A stretch of DNA of 64,000 bases from an uncultured Mesonia sp. (GTDB taxonomy: Bacteria > Bacteroidota > Bacteroidia > Flavobacteriales > Flavobacteriaceae), in the NCBI GenBank assembly GCA_958296185.1, contig CATQIB010000006.1, forward strand, positions 1 through 64,000, read 5' to 3'. Below the pieces are notes generated by a model, which was not told the DNA's origin, did not search any database, and saw only the letters and a program-made list of their open reading frames with translations. Made by a program: the position numbers and the translations under genes. Shown here one piece after another: positions 328-38,993 of this stretch. Every line of letters begins with the position of its first letter. Position 1 is the stretch's first letter.

Positions 328-2080
328 AACCTACCTTGTCATGTCGAGTTTCGTATTTTTGGTGGTAAACCAAAAATACGAAGTATCGAGAACACGTCGA
401 AAAGTAACGAATACTTTTTTAGTTTCCATTAAACCACTTCTCGATACAACCCAGCGAGTCCAACTACGGCATTAAAAATGCCTGTTGGTTAAGCTGCGCC
501 ACTCGAAGTGACAGGCGTTAAAACCTGCCTTGTCATGTCGAGTGCGAATTTATGGCGAAAGCCATAAAAGCGTGTATCGAGACACGGTCGAAAAGTAATG
601 AATACTTTTATAGTTTCAATTCATTCACTTCTCGATACAACCCAGCGAGTCCAACTACGGCATTAAAAATGCTGTTGGCTAAGCTGGCCCACTCGAAGTG
701 GCAGGCGTTTAATACCTGCCTTGTCATGTCGAGTTTCGGATTTTTGGTGGTAAACCAAAAATACGAAGTATCGAGACACGGTAGAAAAGTAGCGAGTTTA
801 TTTATATTTTCAAAAGTTACTCTTTTACAATTCACCAATCTTGCTATGTCTTAATTTTCATTTTCTTTACTTGTATAAAGAAAACGAAACAAAAGAAAGT
901 ACACTTTTTTTGAGGTATTTTTCAGACAAGCTCAAAACCACTTGTATTTTGCTAAATTGGCTCCAAGGCCTCGCCAATTTTTCACGCAAAACACAAGTTA
1001 TACTGAAGAAAAAGAATACAAAGCCCTGCTTTGAATCGCTATTTGAATTGGGCTGCAGGCATGTAAAATAACCTTAATACCTACCTTGTCATACCGAGTG
1101 GAGTTTTTGACGATAGGCAAAAACTCTTGTATCGAGGTGCAGTCGAAAAGTAGCGAATACTTTTATAGTTTCCATTATTATTTACTGCTAATCGAAAACT
1201 TTAAATATCCATTTCTTAATCCTCTACTTTTTTCCATCGCCGAAAAAAGTAGCAAAAAAGTCTAGGCTTACGAAACTATGGCTAAATTGTATGTTTGCAA
1301 GCTAAATTTTAGGAACTCCCCCGATTTCCAATCGGTCTCAAACAGCCTAAAATTTTTAACGCTTACTGCACTGCCAATTTTACGCGCTATTTTCGATAGA
1401 CCGGGTTTAAAATGGTATGCCTATTTATTCTTTTATAAAATAGCCACGCTTGTCATGTCGAGTTTCGCATTTTTGGGCGGTTGAACAAAAATGCGAAGTA
1501 TCGAGACAAAGTCGAAAAGTAGCGAGTACTTTTTAGTTTCCATTAAATCACTTCTCGATACAACCCAGCGAGTCCAACTACGGCATAAATGCCTGTTGGC
1601 TAGGCTGGCCCACTCGAAGTGACAGGCGTTTAAAACCTGCCCTGTCATGTCGAGTGCGTTTTTTTGGCGAGAGCCATAAAAACGTGTATCGAGACACGGT
1701 CGAAAAGCAGCGAGTTTATTTCCGTTTTCATAACCTACTTTCTTACAATTCATCAATCTTGCTATGTCCTAATTTTCATTTTCTTTACTTGTATAAAGAA
1801 AACGAAACAAAAGAAAGAACACTTTTTCTGAGGTATTTTTCAGTCAAGCTGAAAACCACTTGTATTTTGCTAAATTGGCTCCAAGGCTTCGCCAATTTTT
1901 CACGCAAAACACAAGTTATACTGAAGAAAAAGAATACAAAGCCCTGCTTTGAAACGCTTTTTGACTTAGGCTGCTGGATATTAGTAACTCTACTTATTAT
2001 TTTTAATTAAAATCCCACTCCTTACCGTTAAACAGAAAAGCCAAAAAAACGCTTTCGATTTCCTTTAAACCTACTATCTT
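328..2080. repeat. Intergenic repeat block 1 (families A, B, C)
   Basis: No credible gene lies here. The block is a mosaic of structured repeats. Full A elements are at 337-513, 531-703 and 1451-1624; left-half A copies start at 722, 1087 and 1643. B elements are at 845-1057 and 1763-1974. A C element is at 1222-1408. Short open frames across these elements are translations of the repeats, recur wherever the element recurs, and are not called as genes. The last 100 bases lead into wecC and contain a weak promoter-like TATCTTAG at 2085-2092. Confidence 0.85.
337..513 (+). repeat. A-family element (exemplar), MITE-like
   Basis: Element of 177 bp with imperfect 13-bp terminal inverted repeats: TGTCATGTCGAGT at 337-349 and ACTCGAAGTGACA at 501-513 (11 of 13 pair). 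Next to the left end is a perfect 13-bp hairpin, TTCGTATTTTTGG (350-362) with CCAAAAATACGAA (370-382), loop TGGTAAA. Other full copies are at 531-703, 1451-1624, 21931-22105, 27646-27819 and 28358-28532. Copies differ in which hairpin they carry (see findings). No coding capacity; transposition in trans is possible but no transposase is present in the window. Confidence 0.8.
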
Positions 2081-18854: not shown

Positions 18855-18898
18855 GGACTAGGGACCAGGGACCAGGGACCAGGGACTAGGAGTTGGGA
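18838..18898 (+). repeat. Short heptamer-type tandem repeat
   Basis: Purine-rich degenerate tandem repeat with GGGACCA repeated about three to four times around 18858-18885, flanked by GGAGTTAGGGACTA and GGAGTTGGGAGTTAG variants. It runs straight into the 8-bp array that follows. Similar short heptameric repeats occur between genes in several bacterial phyla. Confidence 0.75.
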
Positions 18899-18905
18899 GT
18901 TAGTA

Positions 18906-19001
18906 AACCAGTAGACCAGTAAACCAGTAGACCAGTGTACCAGTCAACCAGTAGACCAGTGAACTAGTGAACCAGTCAACCAGTCAACCAGTAAACCAAT
19001 A
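18906..19001 (+). repeat. 8-bp tandem array, upstream arm (ACCAGT core)
   Basis: Twelve consecutive 8-bp units of the form nACCAGTn (AACCAGTA, GACCAGTA, AACCAGTC and variants), ending 3 bp before the start codon of the four-helix-bundle gene. The period is exact, with only point differences. The same unit resumes at the end of that gene (19352-19428). Confidence 0.9.
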
Positions 19002-19004
19002 AAT

Positions 19005-19361
19005 ATGAAAACACATAAAGATTTAGATGTCTGGAAGAATAGTATTAGTTTTGTTACCCAGCTTTATCAAGAAACTCAGCATTTTCCTTCTACTGAACGC
19101 TTTGGTTTGACCTCTCAATTAAGAAGAAGTGCTGTTTCCGTTCCGTCTAATTTAGCAGAAGGTTTTGCAAGGAGAGGAGTTAAAGAAAGAATTCATTTTT
19201 TGTACATTGCGTTGGGAAGTAATTCAGAAATAGAAACACAACTAATTATAGCTGAAAACCTTAGTTTTTTGTCCGAAAGAATAGCTACGGAATTAAAAAA
19301 CGAAAATCAAAAAATCGGAAAACAGTTGGTAAATTTGATTAGATATTTTGAGAATCAGTAG
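19005..19361 (+). CDS. Four-helix-bundle protein (23S rRNA IVP-like)
   Basis: 118 residues, member of the four-helix-bundle family related to proteins encoded in 23S rRNA intervening sequences (TIGR02436 type). Diagnostic stretches are KDLDVWKNSISFVTQLYQET, FGLTSQLRRSAVSVPSNLAEG and FLYIALGSNSEIETQL. Biochemical function is unknown for the family; members are frequent in Bacteroidota polysaccharide loci. The ATG follows the 8-bp array by 3 bp and the last codons (AAT CAG TAG) lie inside the same array, so the gene is embedded in it. Confidence 0.85.
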   Translation: MKTHKDLDVWKNSISFVTQLYQETQHFPSTERFGLTSQLRRSAVSVPSNLAEGFARRGVKERIHFLYIALGSNSEIETQLIIAENLSFLSERIATELKNENQKIGKQLVNLIRYFENQ

Positions 19362-19428
19362 ACCGGTAGACCATTGAACCAGTGAACCATTGAACCAGTC
19401 AACCAGTATACCAATCAACCAAGTAACC
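19352..19428 (+). repeat. 8-bp tandem array, downstream arm
   Basis: About nine 8-bp units with the same nACCAGTn-like core as 18906-19001, more diverged (GACCGGTA, GACCATTG, AACCAGTG, AACCAGTC, TACCAATC). It begins within the last codons of the four-helix-bundle gene and ends about 10 bp before the sugar transferase start. It lies in frame with an upstream TTG at 19390, which would add 16 repeat-encoded residues to the transferase. Confidence 0.85.
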
Positions 19429-21049: not shown

Positions 21050-22290
21050 TTAGTTCCAGCTAAACCACTTCTCGATACAACCTACCTTGTCATGTCGAGT
21101 TTCGCATTTTTGGTGATAAACCAAAAATGCGAAGTATCGAGATCTCCGAAGTGTCGGGACTCCCAAAAGCTCGCACTAAGTACTAGTATTTTAAAACCTA
21201 CCTTGTCATGTCGAGTGCGATTTTATGGCGAGAGCCATAAAAACGTGTATCGAGGTGCAGTCGAAAAGTAGCGAATTTATTTTCTTTTTCAAAACCTACA
21301 TCACAACAACACATCAATAGTACTATGTCCTAATTTTCATTTTCTTTACTTGTATAAAGAAAACGAAACAAAAGAAAGTACACTTTTTCTGAGGTATTTT
21401 TCAGACAAGCTGAAAACCACTTGTATTTTGCTAAATTGGCTCCAAGGCTACTCCAATTCTTCACGCAAAACACAAGTTATACTGAAGAAAAAGATTGCAA
21501 AGCCCTGCTTTGAAACGCTATTTGAATTGGGCTGCTGGTGTATAGAATAACTTTAAAACCTGCCCTGTCATGTCGAGTGCGATTTTATGGCGTGAGCCAT
21601 AAAACGTGTATCGAGACACATTCGAAAAGTAGCGAATACTTTTATAGATTCCATTATTATTTACTACTAATCGAAAACTAAAGCTATTTATTTTTTATTC
21701 CTCTACTTTTTTCCATCGCCGAAAAAAGTAGCAAAAAAGTCTAGGCTTACGAAACTAGCGCTAAATTGTATGTTTGCAAGCTAAATTTTAGGAACTCACC
21801 CGATTTCCAATCGGTCTCAAACAGCCTAAAATTTTTAACGCTTACTGCACTGCCAATTTTACGCGCTATTTTCGATAGGCCGGGTTTGTAAAGTAGTTTT
21901 AATTTTTCTTTTTAGGGAAATAACCTACCTTGTCATGTTGAGTATCGCATTTTTGGTGATAAACCAAAAATGCGAAGTATCGAGACAAAGTCGAAAAGTA
22001 CTGCACATGTTTATAGTTGCAATTAAACTCACTTCTCGATACAACCCAGCAAGTCCAACTACGGCAAAAATGCCTGTTGGCTAAGCTGGCCCACTCGAAG
22101 TGACAGCGAAGTGTCGGGACTGCCCAATGGTCGCACTAAGTACTAGTATTTTAAAACCTGCCTTGTCATACCGAGTTTCGGATTTTTGGGCGATAGAACA
22201 AAAATGCGAAGTATCGAGGTGCAGTCGAAAAGTAGCGAATTTATTTTTTGGCTCGTTTTTGATCAATCAAAAATGAACAGAAAGAAATGC
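21050..22290. repeat. Intergenic repeat block 2
   Basis: No gene. A-type left halves start at 21088, 21204, 21566 and 22164; a full A element is at 21931-22105; B is at 21323-21535; C is at 21701-21887. A further small module with a CCGAAGTGTCGGG hairpin and a GTACTAGTATTTTAAAACC tail lies at about 21146-21200 and 22108-22160. A palindromic TTTTTGATCAATCAAAAA at about 22254-22271 closes the block; a close variant closes block 4. The remaining 150 bp to the next gene show nothing recognisable. Confidence 0.85.
21701..21887 (+). repeat. C-family element (exemplar)
   Basis: 187-bp structured repeat. A 10-bp hairpin opens it (CTACTTTTTT 21703-21712 with AAAAAAGTAG 21722-21731). A second branch pairs TAAATTTTAGG (21782-21792) with CCTAAAATTT (21825-21834) and encloses a third hairpin, CCGATT (21800-21805) with AATCGG (21809-21814). 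Outer AGCGCTAAATTG and CAATTTTACGCGCT can pair imperfectly. Other copies: 1222-1408, 35638-35824, 36239-36425, about 36839-37024, 38056-38242; a 3' piece at 28276-28315. Confidence 0.75.
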
Positions 22291-22447
22291 TAGCTTTTAG
22301 TTTGAAGCTGGATTTTGATTGGGAAGGAGGGGGATATTTTTTAGTTGTTTTAGGAATTGAAAATGTAAGCAATTGATTGCAATAGGCTAAGAAGAACAAG
22401 AAGCGATTGCGCACCAGTGGGGGGTAATTAGGGTTTTACAAATACTA

Positions 22448-27640: not shown

Positions 27641-28600
27641 TGCCTTGTCATGTCGAGTTTCGGATTTTTGGTGGTAAACCAAAAATGTGAAGTATCGAGG
27701 TAAAGTCGAAAAGTAGCGAATATCTTTACAATTCCCATTAAACCACTTCTCGATACAACCCAGCGAGTCCAACTACGGCATAAATGCCTGTTGGCTAAGC
27801 TGCGTCACTCGAAGTGACAGCGAATACTCGAGACTCTCAAAAGATCGCACTAGGTACGTAGTAGTTTAATACCTGCCTTGTCACACCGAGTGGGGGTTTT
27901 TGCCGATAGGCAAATACCCTTGTATCGAGGTGCAGTCGAAAAGTAGCGAATTTATTTTCTTTTTCAAAACCTACATCACAACAACCCATCAATAGTACTA
28001 TGTCCTAATTTTCATTTTCTTTACGGTGTATTCCTCTCGCTGCGCTCGTCGGATACAGGAGAAAACGAAACAAAAGAAAGTACACTTTTTCTGAGGTATT
28101 TTTCAGCTTTGCTGAAAACCACTTGTTTTTCGCTAAATTGGCTCCAAGGCTTCGCCAATTCTTCACGCAAAACACAAGTTATACTGAAGAAAAAGATTGC
28201 AAAGCCCTGCTTTGAATCGCTTTTTGATGTGGGCTGCCGGATATTGTTATTTCTATATTCAGATCAATATAATTAGCACTGCCAATTTTACGCGCTATTT
28301 TCGATAGGCCGGTTTGAAAAGTAGTTATAATTACTCCTTTTGTAAAATAACCTACCTTGTCATGTCGAGTTTCGGATTTTTGGTGGTAAACCAAAAATGC
28401 GAAGTATCGAGACACAGTCGAAAAGTAGCGAATACTTTTTTAGTTTTAATTCATTCACTTCTCGATACAACCCAGCAAGTCCAACTACGGCATTAAAAAT
28501 GCCTGTTGGCTAGGCTGGCCCACTCGAAGGGATCCCGAAGTGTCGGGACTCCCTAAAGGTCGCACTAAATACTAGTATTTTAAAACACGCCTTGCCAGTA
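27641..28600. repeat. Intergenic repeat block 3
   Basis: Full A elements at 27646-27819 and 28358-28532 (the latter with an altered right end); A left half from 27879; B variant at 27998-28237 with an enlarged arm; C 3' fragment at 28276-28315; a CCGAAGTGTCGGG hairpin module at about 28536-28585. No gene. The block separates two divergently organised transcription units. Confidence 0.85.
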
Positions 28601-34992: not shown

Positions 34993-35493
34993 GTTTTTTA
35001 TAAGTCTTTTTTAATTATAACCCGCCTTGTTATGTCTAGTCCGTTTTTATGGCGAGATCCATAGGGATGTGTATCGAGATCCCGAATACTCGGGACTCCC
35101 GGAAGGTCGCACTAAATACTAGTATTTTAAAACCTACCTTGTCATGTCGAGTGCGTTTTTATGGCGTGAGCCATAAAAACGTGTATCGAGACACGGTCGA
35201 AAAGTAGTGAATTCATTCATTGTTTCTTAATCTATTTTCTTAAAATTCATCAATCTTACTATGTTCTAATTTTCATTTTCTTTACTTGTATAAAGAAAAC
35301 GAAACAAAAGAAAGTACACTTTTTCTGAGGTATTTTTCAGGCAAGCTGAAAACCACTTGTATTTTGCTAAATTGGCTCCAAGGCTTCACCAATTCTTCAC
35401 GCAAAACACAAGTTATACTGAAGAAAAAGAATGCAAAGCCCTGCTTTGAAACGCTTTTTGATGTGGGCTGCTGGTGTATAAAATAACTTTAAA

Positions 35494-36694
35494 ACCTACC
35501 TTGTCACACCGAGTGGGGGTTTTTGCCGATAGGCAAATACCCTTATATCGAGGTGCAGTCGAAAAGTAGCGAATATCTTTATAGTTACCATTAAAATACG
35601 CTACTAATCGAAAACTAAAAGTACCCATTTTTTAACCCTCTACTTTTTTCCATCGCCGAAAAAAGTAGCAAAAAAGTCTAGGCTTACGAAACTAGCGCTA
35701 AATTGTATGTTTGCAAGCTAAATTTTAGGAACTCACCCGATTTCCAATCGGTCTCAAACAGCCTAAAATTTTCAACGCTTACTGCACTGCCAATTTTACG
35801 CCCTATTTTCGATAGGCCGGGTTTAAATGATATTTCTATTTATTTTTTTTAGAAGAAAACCACGCCTTGTCATGTCGAGTTTCAGATTTTTGAGCGGTAG
35901 AACAAAAATGCGAAGTATCGAGAACACGGTCGAAAAGTAGCGAATACCTTTACAATTCCCATTAAACCACTTCTCGATACAACCCAGCGAGTCCAACTAC
36001 GGCATAAATGCCTGTTGGCTAAGCTGCGTCACTCGAAGTGACAGCGAATACTCGAGACTCTTAAAAGATCGCACTAGGTACGTAGTAGTTTAATACCTAC
36101 CTTGTCATACCGAGTGGAGGTTTTTGACGATAGGCAAAAACTCTTGTATCGAGGTAAAGTCGAAAAGTAGCGAATATCTTTATAGTTACCATTAAAATAC
36201 GCTACTAATCGAAAACTAAAAGTACCCATTTTTTAACCCTCTACTTTTTTCCATCGCCGAAAAAAGTAGCAAAAAAGTCTAGGCTTACGAAACTAGCGCT
36301 AAATTGTATGTTTGCAAGCTAAATTTTAGGAACTCACCCGATTTCCAATCGGTCTCAAACAGCCTAAAATTTTCAACGCTTACTGCACTGCCAATTTTAC
36401 ACGCTATTTTCGATAGGCCGGGTTTAAATGATATTTCTATTTATTTTTTTTAGAAGAAAACCACGCCTTGTCATGTCGAGTTTCAGATTTTTGAGCGGTA
36501 GAACAAAAATGCGAAGTATCGAGAACACGTCGAAAAGTAGCGAATACCTTTACAATTCCCATTAAAGCACTTCTCGATACAACCCAGCGAGTCCAACTAC
36601 GGCATAAATGCCTGTTGGCTAAGCTGCGTCACTCGAAGTGACAGCGAATACTCGAGACTCTCAAAAGATCGCACTAGGTACGTAGTAGTTTAAT
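35494..36694 (+). repeat. Two tandem 600-bp composite units
   Basis: Units 35494-36094 and 36095-36694 are nearly identical by eye, each ordered A-left-half (GTGGGGGTTTTTGCC-type hairpin), C element, full A element and the GCACTAGGTACGTAGTAG tail. A third unit starts at 36695 with the same period but switches sequence after its C element. The junction repeats the phrase TAATACCTACCTTGTCATAC at 36091 and 36691. Confidence 0.85.
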
Positions 36695-38408
36695 ACCTAC
36701 CTTGTCATACCGAGTGGGGGTTTTTGCCGATAGGCAAAAACTCTTGTATCGAGGTGCAGTCGAAAAGTAGCAAGTACTTGTATAGTTTCCATTATGATAA
36801 ACTACTAATCGAAAACTAAAAGTACCCATTTTTTAACCCTCTACTTTTTTCCATCGCCGAAAAAAGTAGCAAAAAAGTCTAGGCTTATGAAACTAGCGCT
36901 AAATTGTATGTTTGCAAGCTAAATTTTAGGAACTCACCCGATTTCCAATCGGTCTCAAACAGCCTAAAATTTTTAACGCTTACTGCACTGCCAATTTTAC
37001 GCGCTATTTTCGATAGGCCGTTTTTAAATTGTACTTTTATTTATTATTCTTTGGTGAAAAAACCTGCCATGTCATGTCGAGTGCGATTTTATGGCGAGAG
37101 CCATAAAAACGTGTATCGAGACACGGTCGAAAAGTAGCGAATTTATTTTCTTTTTCAAAACCTACATCCTAACAACACAAGAATCTTGCTATGTCCTAAT
37201 TTTCATTTTCTTTACGGTGTATTCCTCTCGCTGCGCTCGTCGGATACAGGAGAAAACGAAACAAAAGAAAGTACACTTTTTCTGAGGTATTTTTCAGCTT
37301 TGCTGAAAACCACTTGTTTTTCGCTAAATTGGCTCCAAGGCTTTCCCGAATACTCGGGACTCCCTAAAGGTCGCGCTAGGTAGATAGAGTTATATAATTT
37401 ACCTTTAATACTATTGTCCTGCCTAATTTATGCGCAAAACACAAGTTATACTGAAGAAAAAGATTGCAAAGTGCTGCTTTGAATCGCTATTTGAGTTGGG
37501 CTGCTGGTGTATAGAATAACTTTAAACCCTACCTTGTCATGTCGAGTGCGATTTTATGGCGTGAGCCATAAAAAAGTGTATCGAGGTGCAGTCGAAAAGT
37601 AGCGAATATCTTTATAGTTACCATTAAAATACGCTACTAATCGAAAACTAAAGCTATTTATTTTTTTTAGAAGAAAACCACGCCTTGTCATGTCGAGTTT
37701 CGGATTTTTGAGCGGTAGAACAAAAATGCGAAGTATCGAGACACAGTCGAAAAGTAGCGAATACCTTTACAATTCCCATTAAACCACTTCTCGATAAAAC
37801 CCAGCGAGTCCAACTACGGCATAAATGCCTGTTGGCTAAGCTGCGTCACTCGAAGTGACAGCGAATACTTGAGACTCTCAAAAGATTGCACTAGGTACGT
37901 AGTAGTTTAATACCTGCCTTGTCACACCGAGTGGGGGTTTTTGCCGATAGGCAAAAACTCTTGTATCGAGGTGCAGTCGAAAAGTAGCAAGTACTTGTAT
38001 AGTTTCCATTATGATAAACTACTAATCGAAAACTAAAAGTACCCATTTTTTAACCCTCTACTTTTTTCCATCGCCGAAAAAAGTAGCAAAAAAGTCTAGG
38101 CTGACGAAACTAGCGCTAAATTGTATGTTTGCAAGCTAAATTTTAGGAACTCACCCGATTTCCAATCGGTCTCAAATAGCCTAAAATTTTTAACGCTTAC
38201 TGCACTGCCAATTTTACGCCCTATTTTCGATAGGCCGGGTTTAAATGGTATTTCTATTTATTTTTTTTAGAAGAAAACCACGCCTTGTCATGTCGAGTTT
38301 CGGATTTTTGAGCGGTAGAACAAAAATACGAAGTATCGAGACACAGTCGAAAAGTAGCGAGTTTATTTTCTTTTTCAAAACCTATATCACAACAACACAT
38401 CAATAATA

Positions 38409-38621
38409 CTATGTCCTAATTTTCATTTTCTTTACTTGTATAAAGAAAACGAAACAAAAGAAAGTACACTTTTTCTGAGGTATTTTTCAGACAAGCTGAA
38501 AACCACTTGCATTTTGCTAAATTGGCTCCAAGGCTTCGCCAATTCTTCACGCAAAACACAAGTTATACTGAAGAAAAAGAATGCAAAGCGCTGCTTTGAA
38601 TCGCTATCTGAATTGGGCTGC
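38409..38621 (+). repeat. B-family element (exemplar), multi-branch fold
   Basis: 213-bp element made of nested inverted repeats. Outer arm CTTTTTCTGAGGTAT (38469-38483) with ATACTGAAGAAAAAG (38565-38579); hairpin TTTTCAG (38484-38490) with CTGAAAA (38496-38502); arm ACTTGCATTTTGC (38505-38517) with GCAAAACACAAGT (38551-38563) enclosing AATTGGC (38520-38526) and GCCAATT (38538-38544). A hairpin TTTTCTTTA/TAAAGAAAA precedes it. Other copies: 845-1057, 1763-1974, 21323-21535, 27998-28237, 35259-35471, 37189-37505 (interrupted). Confidence 0.75.
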
Positions 38622-38993
38622 TGGTGTGTAAAATAAATCTAAAACCTGCCTTGTCACACCGAGTGGGGGTTTTTGCCGATAGGCAAAAACTCTTGTATCG
38701 AGTCCCCGAAGTATCGGGACTACTGCGTAACGAAGTAGCGAATTTATCTTTCGGTTCGTTTTTGATCAAGCAAAAATGAACAGAAAGAATTTATAGCATT
38801 TGGTTTGAAGATGGATTATCGAATAGACATTGGATGTAGAGGGAGAGGTTATACGCTATTAATGATTTGATAATGATGTGTGATTTTGATGTTGCAAAAA
38901 GACTGATTTATTAAAAAACATTGAATAGATAAAAATTAACCTTGCACTTAATCGACAAATTATGTCGATTCAACAAATATTTGAGGGATTCGT

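Follow-up and report, generated by a model that had tools for sequence, protein, structure and literature searches.

The window, the whole stretch of 64,000 nucleotides analysed here, contains four arrays of repeated modules. They lie on the forward (+) strand, as do the B copies with their parts and the D module example for which coordinates are given below. Array 1 (335..1977) has the module order At C Ag C At B Ah D At C Ag B, array 2 (21064..22315) the order (C) At E Ag B Ag D At C At F, and array 3 (27644..28532) the order At C E Ah B (D tail) At C. Array 4 (35032..38817) has the longest run of A hairpins in alternation with B, C, C-E, D and F modules. Module A is a hairpin of about 80 bp with three interchangeable kinds of tip; the modules B, C, C-E, D and F sit between A copies, and E is a short module of the Mesonia arrays. 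An example of the D module, one of several, is located at 35594..35822, and its portion 35640-35822 yields a z value of -3.7 when folded as DNA. Apart from the arrays, two 8-bp tandem repeat tracts of the CAGTNAAC type (18869-19021 and 19332-19428) were observed between genes of a polysaccharide region. Several large, probably secreted proteins are encoded at 39306-63848; by eye they have similar C-terminal ends, and DNA repeats are shared between their genes.

The arrangement of the modules was counted in 16 stretches from three Mesonia genomes, with E ignored, adjacent pieces of one module merged and neighbours accepted within 200 nt. An A module stood next to a different module (A-X or X-A) in 177 of 207 neighbouring pairs. 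The remaining pairs were 20 of the X-X type, 12 of them B followed by D (mostly a D tail), and 10 of the A-A type. All 207 pairs had the same orientation. In Mesonia, the core of B is a module of same-orientation arrays, in which it alternates with A hairpins. The module content varies at loci whose outer flanks are common to the genome of the window and two other Mesonia genomes.

Seven copies of an element of about 213 bp had been claimed for the window from the sequence alone, and seven copies of B were found, five of them 216-217 bp long and two being longer variants. The simple copies are the reference copy at 38409..38625, which comprises the core (38421-38580), flanking linker and the terminal hairpin P6, and the copies at 844..1059, 1762..1977, 21323..21539 and 35259..35475, all five detected with both BLAST and the covariance model. 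The longer variants at 27998..28240 and 37189..37508 were detected with the covariance model. The tip of the first hairpin (P1) is swapped for a longer sequence in both, and the inner hairpin region (P5) is additionally replaced in the 37-kb copy. The change of the loop from CAGACAAGCTG to CAGCTTTGCTG described for the 28-kb and 37-kb copies is present in the sequence. Across the genome, the covariance model yielded 15 copies with 66.5-172.5 bits and two further weak matches of 30 and 27.6 bits. A BLAST search with 38409-38621 against the same genome returned 24 pieces, of which 23 are on three contigs and one weak piece is located elsewhere. Compared to dinucleotide shuffles, the 38409 copy had z values of -2.2 (+ strand) and -3.1 (- strand) when folded as RNA. 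Folded as DNA, the + strand gave a z value of -3.5, the clearest of the three tests.

From 5' to 3', the core is composed of P1, a linker, the 3' side of a pseudoknot, P2, P3, P4 enclosing P5, and the end of P2. The order claimed earlier (long arm, hairpin, second arm with an inner hairpin, closing arm) is borne out by the B sequence. P1 (38421..38454, supported by counted pairs and the linker register) is a 13-bp A/T-rich hairpin. Its foot TTTC/GAAA pairs 38421-38424 with 38451-38454 and is topped by an A x C mismatch (38425, 38450), which is frequent among the copies. The stem (38426-38434 with 38441-38449) carries a loop at 38435-38440, of which the bases TGTA (38437..38440) pair with TACA at 38465..38468 as the two sides of the pseudoknot, both supported by pair counts. 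Between P1 and the 3' side of the pseudoknot lies the A-rich linker (38455..38464, CAAAAGAAAG), the proposed third strand along P1. The closing arm P2 (38469..38579) surrounds a three-way junction and pairs 38469-38476 with 38572-38579 and 38479-38483 with 38565-38569. It encloses the hairpin P3 (38484..38502, TTTTCAG...CTGAAAA) and the arm P4 (38505..38563), in which 38505-38509 pair with 38559-38563 and 38512-38517 with 38551-38556. P2, P3 and P4 are supported by the predicted fold and by pair counts, and the inner hairpin P5 (38520..38544) additionally by the alignment: its loop TCCAAGGCTTC at 38527-38537 is near-invariant across the aligned copies. The hairpin P6 (38584..38598, CAAAGC-GCT-GCTTTG) was obtained from the fold; judged by eye, P6-like hairpins follow some copies in other genera and are absent behind others. 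The stretch 38409-38621 matches its description in the sequence-only reading, in which the P1 hairpin with its pseudoknot and linker, part of the same unit, had not been singled out.

The fold varies among copies. Pseudoknot mates identified by eye include CATC/GATG, CGTC/GACG, TGTA/TACA and GCCC/GGGC. A second subtype of B features a different P4/P5, and some copies from Leeuwenhoekiella and Kordia contain extra sequence within P2, by eye an extra arm. At L316, L027, L109 (1864) and L160, the P1 tip or the linker of B copies has been replaced by another palindromic repeat or has received one as an insertion. The hairpin tips of B look as if they were preferred landing or swap sites for other palindromic repeats.

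In a sample of 299 genomes of the family, BLAST with a window copy yielded matches in 58 genomes and the covariance model in 109. Matches to the model were also obtained in 18 of 296 genomes of a phylum-wide sample, 12 of the 18 being from outside the family and reaching at most 56 bits. In both surveys with the model, the filters were strict and only few candidates were taken per genome. At least 114 stretches were returned when named genomes were scanned with a pattern. Among the 80 listed, most belong to Flavobacteriaceae (including Kordia, Leeuwenhoekiella, Gillisia, Mesonia, Salinimicrobium, Zhouia and Lutibacter) and some to Saprospiraceae and Lentimicrobiaceae. The model search covered 98 of those 114 loci, with L171-L186 left out. 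Single pattern matches in a Clostridium (L090) and an alphaproteobacterium (L118) were not supported by the covariance model and were discarded, as was the single locus of a viral pattern scan (L187), which the model did not support at an E value of 1e-6. A search of phage and plasmid collections with one relative copy as query gave no match.

The window copies are near-identical and say little on covariation, so that copies from other genera were needed; since B was present in 109 of the 299 sampled family genomes, the fold could be tested. The alignment consisted of 17 sequences, namely the window copy and 16 copies from relatives, trimmed from P1 through the end of P2. Second-subtype copies, partial copies and two near-duplicates among the 19 trimmed sequences were left out. 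A single structure of 55 pairs, four of them in the pseudoknot, was scored. In this alignment 88.3% of the cells pair, a value favoured by the derivation of the structure from the window sequence and the same alignment, and 39 of the 55 pairs change on both sides. Double-change cells numbered 152, compared to a mean of 47 after shuffling. The covariation score was 0.408, against 0.136 for shuffles (0 of 500 reached the observed score) and 0.075-0.124 for slid partners. All six helices covary, including the pseudoknot helix, in which four of four pairs change on both sides and 91.2% of the cells are paired. Double changes in all six helices are not a consequence of deriving the structure from the same alignment. 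A larger alignment of 92 distinct rows, which was fitted to the model and thus leans to the structure and does not include the pseudoknot, gave 93.3% paired cells, 47 of 51 pairs changing on both sides and a covariation of 0.373 versus 0.099.

These values indicate that the B fold is real and selected, in agreement with the main interpretation of the sequence-only reading. Neither the lack of covariation nor the independently mutating arms named there as counter-evidence occurred, and B is, as described there, far more ordered than a REP hairpin. Across genera, mates change together, and the constraint on the sequence of B is such that a single strand is able to form a pseudoknotted hairpin and a three-way junction with two arms.

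The linker repeats the T/C runs of the 5' strand of P1 as A/G runs in the same direction. Examples are TTTTCTTT in P1 with AAAAGAAA in the linker, TTTCTTT with AAAGAAA, and all-T with all-A. A set of 64 non-redundant copies, clustered from 176 of 226 rows (the 50 weakest rows were unused and rows with N were dropped), was used for counting. The register was parsed in 54 of the 64 copies, the other ten being unparsed in some cases because a different hairpin replaces P1, and it is parallel in 53 of the 54. Asymmetric cores were parallel in 37 of 37 cases and antiparallel in none. When linkers were shuffled among copies, a mean of 23.8 and a maximum of 33 parallel cases were obtained in 2000 rounds. 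A pyrimidine arm, a complementary purine arm and a directed second purine arm, the sequence features of a purine-motif intrastrand triplex (class II), are all found in B. As far as can be judged from these features, P1 and linker follow the pattern of a purine-motif intrastrand DNA triplex with C-G.G and T-A.A triads, which the pseudoknot would lock at the top of P1.

P1 and linker read as an A/T-rich case of a known class of purine-motif intrastrand triplexes (PMC4666352). According to the available part of that paper, the TMECO/PIT motifs resemble B in consisting of a pyrimidine arm, a loop, a purine arm, a short spacer and a second purine arm, and in being DNA-level motifs with stems of 8-9 nt and many copies per genome (PMC4666352). 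In the same text, TMECO is G/C-rich, occurs in 262 proteobacterial genomes and is given without a larger fold (PMC4666352), whereas B is A/T-rich. Unlike in TMECO, the loop of B pairs with bases after the third strand, and the hairpin is the first part of a conserved fold of about 160 nt. The paper also counts A/T-only triplexes in some genomes, among them Flexibacter litoralis, and states that a stable in vivo triplex of the E. coli motif found no support in footprinting (PMC4666352). The footprinting result weighs against the triplex reading of B. The terms Flavobacter, Bacteroidetes, Kordia and pseudoknot are absent from the main text of PMC4666352. The sequence-only reading had known of no named element with this architecture. 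For the element as a whole, no earlier description was recognised from titles and abstract openings in a literature search of openly accessible papers. The triplex-type hairpin belongs to the class mentioned above, a point that goes beyond the sequence-only reading, as does the mobility in Kordia.

In an RNA helix, G.U would be expected to outnumber A.C on the transcribed strand. In the 64 copies, one fixed position is G.T in 54. Outside this position, 33 G.T and 84 A.C cells were counted; with the fixed position included, the two counts level out (87 and 84). Of the 33 G.T and 84 A.C cells, 15 and 36, respectively, come from P4, the arm with the poorest pairing. As a control, five tRNAs from the same loci showed 7 G.U and no A.C in 106 cells, and the wobble counts of B and tRNA differ with a Fisher p value of 0.0002, the control being small. 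There is no overall preference for G.U over A.C on either strand, unlike in tRNA, which favours DNA. The counts are to be read as absence of a G.U preference and not as a preference for A.C. The conserved G.T, which would be a wobble pair in RNA, counts against the DNA reading. From sequence evidence of this kind, the constrained molecule is probably DNA rather than RNA. The earlier wording of an RNA or DNA structure is supported as to the selected structure and narrowed by the G.T/A.C counts and the linker register, which favour DNA.

HEARO/omega RNA, retrons and other structured mobile RNAs combine, like B, a multi-branch fold with a pseudoknot on a mobile element. B could be a structured RNA with a mobile element as its carrier, be it a small RNA, a cis element or a ribozyme, and the size of the fold, the pseudoknot with its A-rich third loop, the three-way junction and the conserved loop TCCAAGGCTTC do resemble RNA motifs. 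The conserved G.T position and the persistence of the fold in many genera fit this reading as well. We nevertheless regard it as unlikely. Besides the missing G.U preference on both strands, which distinguishes B from HEARO/omega RNA and retrons, no match was found in Rfam 15 at the gathering threshold for the window element or 18 relative loci, again unlike those RNAs. The by-catch was one tRNA elsewhere in L035, and an Rfam search of the array gave only four hits with E values of 3.3-6.9. No consistent gene arrangement was found around the examined copies; genes downstream (3') of the element are in mild excess on the opposite strand (27 of 40). The linker register, finally, fits the triad rule of purine DNA (G with C-G, A with T-A). 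An explanation without any function would be that the fold is passive, its arms being kept matched by template switching of replication at palindromes, so that B would be neutral transposon debris. Watson-Crick matching without a G.U preference, freely swapped hairpin tips and the location of copies in arrays of other palindromes are what such a process would leave behind. It is, however, improbable in view of the P2 and P4 arms, which covary although they are about 40 to 95 nt apart, and of conserved unpaired motifs (TCCAAGGCTTC, CTAAAT and the A x C mismatch of P1) that are no palindromes. Nor does palindrome correction explain the pseudoknot and the parallel register of the linker.

The mobility of B was studied in Kordia, where all 11 genomes match and six have more than 50 matches; these numbers were obtained with a five-copy query, for which one place can count more than once. 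Forty copies were taken, 21 from G598 and 19 from G597, both of them single-contig genomes. The core is present in all 40, and in most of them the conservation extends by about 85 nt to the left and 38 nt to the right. The resulting units of about 293 bp end in imperfect inverted repeats, the left end being ACGT(G/C)AGTTCGATATAA. Both inverted repeats were found in 34 of the 40 copies when up to five errors were allowed. Perfect target duplications of at least 5 bp at the fixed boundary were observed for 27 of these 34, compared to 78 of 1122 mismatched flank pairs; 16 are 6 bp, nine are 7 bp and two are 5 bp long.

Sixteen sites were suitable for a search of empty sites within the genus. The joined flanks of eight of them were tried as queries, and at four of the eight one or more relatives match straight across the junction. 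At the only clean one, L262 of G597, the B unit lies within a frame that is uninterrupted in two relatives, which have one copy of the target there and in which the frame is open for 127 and 132 residues across the site. The three intergenic empty sites align loosely. Because these units, with the core inside, end in inverted repeats and inserted with target duplications of 6-7 bp, the core was moved by a transposase acting in trans. The target duplications and empty sites show the unit to be mobile in Kordia.

The left end occurs 36 times in G597, and the reversed pattern was not found in this genome with up to two mismatches. Nineteen further left ends were fetched, of which 13 enclose B, five a different REP-like interior and one a truncated B copy. 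The 18 closed units among them are 190-414 bp long and leave no room for a transposase. An autonomous partner with the same ends was not seen among the 19 further left ends of G597 (up to two mismatches). As the same inverted repeats enclose a different interior, movement in Kordia does not depend on the B fold. In L300-L304 (G597), the inverted repeats of the B unit bound this second interior, which has a palindrome TGTCA...TCGAGC / GCTCGA...TGACA, and three of these five units (L300, L301 and L304) have, by eye, perfect target duplications of 6-7 bp.

With terminal inverted repeats, target duplications and empty sites, the Kordia units are a MITE-type family, for which B is the usual but not the only interior. 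The bacterial MITEs MITEAba12 (PMC6382973) and that of Porphyromonas (PMC4596501) are, in the available text, likewise shorter than 500 bp, with no transposase seen, inverted repeats, target duplications and many copies. B in Kordia differs from these in that its conserved part is an internal fold, which occurs in many genera without the Kordia ends, and in that another interior is found between the same ends as well.

Only Kordia yielded inverted repeats with target duplications, and the mobility of B is therefore shown for this genus only. In the flanks of Mesonia copies that were read, neither the Kordia repeats nor any other inverted repeats or target duplications around B were noticed. 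No shared ends were found among ten copies of G253, G211, G250 and G097. Eight copies from a single genus (L280-L287 of G033/G259) have roughly 60 nt to the left and 40 nt to the right in common, which differ from the Kordia flanks and suggest another set of outer ends; some of them have short inverted ends (TCAAATTCT and AGAATTTGA), and clear ends or target duplications were not found in these eight copies. Since these flanks differ from those of Kordia, the core may ride in units with different ends per genus.

TnpA-REP genes of subclass 2.6 in Bacteroidetes are reported to be flanked by atypical secondary structures in the available part of PMC6006769, and an association with RAYT was tested for this reason. 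REP/RAYT elements are, as B, dispersed intergenic palindromic DNA repeats according to the available text of PMC6006769 and PMC3733652. Both the taxon and the wording of the former paper would fit a REP-type element mobilised by a RAYT/Y1 (TnpA-REP) transposase of subclass 2.6, as would the DNA-level structure of B and the presence of Y1 genes in 116 of the 299 family genomes. B and Y1 are, however, independent in these genomes (Y1 in 46 of 109 with B and 70 of 190 without B, p 0.39), and no Y1 gene was found in the genome of the window, which is 90% complete. Thirty Y1 loci had no convincing B nearby (best 15.5 bits), and at 30 loci from 25 B-carrying genomes the best value was 21.1 bits (E 0.0015). 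One locus was shared between both sets, and the 59 distinct loci are fewer than all Y1 matches. Flanks of several of 11 Y1 genes carry, by eye, a different short repeat. The Kordia copies move with inverted repeats and target duplications, which elements of the Y1 type are not known to do. B is also several times longer than REPs and has a multi-branch fold. With no co-occurrence at the genome level and no convincing B at the 59 Y1 loci, mobilisation by RAYT was rejected and is considered very improbable.

The Mesonia arrays might alternatively be a recombination system in which A hairpins serve as sites for the exchange of the non-coding cassettes B, C, D and F, in loose analogy to attC sites and the cassettes of integrons. 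Alternation in a single orientation (177 of 207 neighbouring pairs) and the differing module content at sites with an outer flank shared with two other Mesonia genomes are in line with this. Homologous recombination between A copies would yield the same arrays, though, and inverted repeats, not A modules, flank B in those Kordia copies that were read; a dedicated system is considered improbable. Recombination between A copies would explain the Mesonia arrays. BIMEs are also mosaics of palindromic modules between genes, but their REPs alternate in orientation (PMC2817692), whereas all 207 Mesonia pairs share one orientation and A alternates with several unlike modules.

Taken together, B is best explained as the structured core of a non-autonomous mobile DNA element of Bacteroidota, the core being a conserved fold of single-stranded DNA; we assign this reading a probability of about 0.55. 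Under this explanation, the A-rich linker would occupy the P1 groove as a third, purine strand, and the fold would form while the strand is single, e.g. behind the replication fork. Our best guess is that a putative protein would recognise the folded single-stranded DNA and help the element to spread or persist. The Mesonia arrays would have grown by recombination between A copies. In kind, B would be a non-autonomous mobile repeat that contains a triplex-type motif, and the chances are fair that its DNA fold is new in its own right. A further-reaching proposal, to which we give somewhat less than even odds, is that B is the DNA counterpart of a structured RNA. Its single-strand tertiary fold of about 160 nt, a triplex-capped pseudoknot hairpin with a three-way junction, would then be the conserved functional molecule, recognised in its folded ssDNA form and passed between genera, and between different transposon ends, across much of Bacteroidota.

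Complex conserved folds are almost always found as RNA, and here the evidence points to selection on a DNA fold. The movement of B can be read from target duplications and empty sites, in an element that shows signs of selection on the fold of its DNA. For the role of intrastrand triplex repeats in bacteria, B would then provide a testable model with many natural variants, a defined fold and a genus in which the element has moved.

Two groups of repeats were observed in addition. Several Flavobacteriaceae genes of the Y1 (RAYT) type, at L362, L369, L373 and other loci, are flanked by a short palindrome like GCGCGGATTTGCAATCCGTGC, which also precedes two B copies of G211 (L294 and L295). The D module likewise begins with a hairpin and an A-rich linker, has a possible loop pairing and folds strongly as DNA. 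In D-like repeats of Leeuwenhoekiella (L093, and L167 on the reverse strand), an 8-base loop complement, GCCTTGAT/ATCAAGGC, was recognised by eye. D and its relatives may be sister families of B within the same superfamily.
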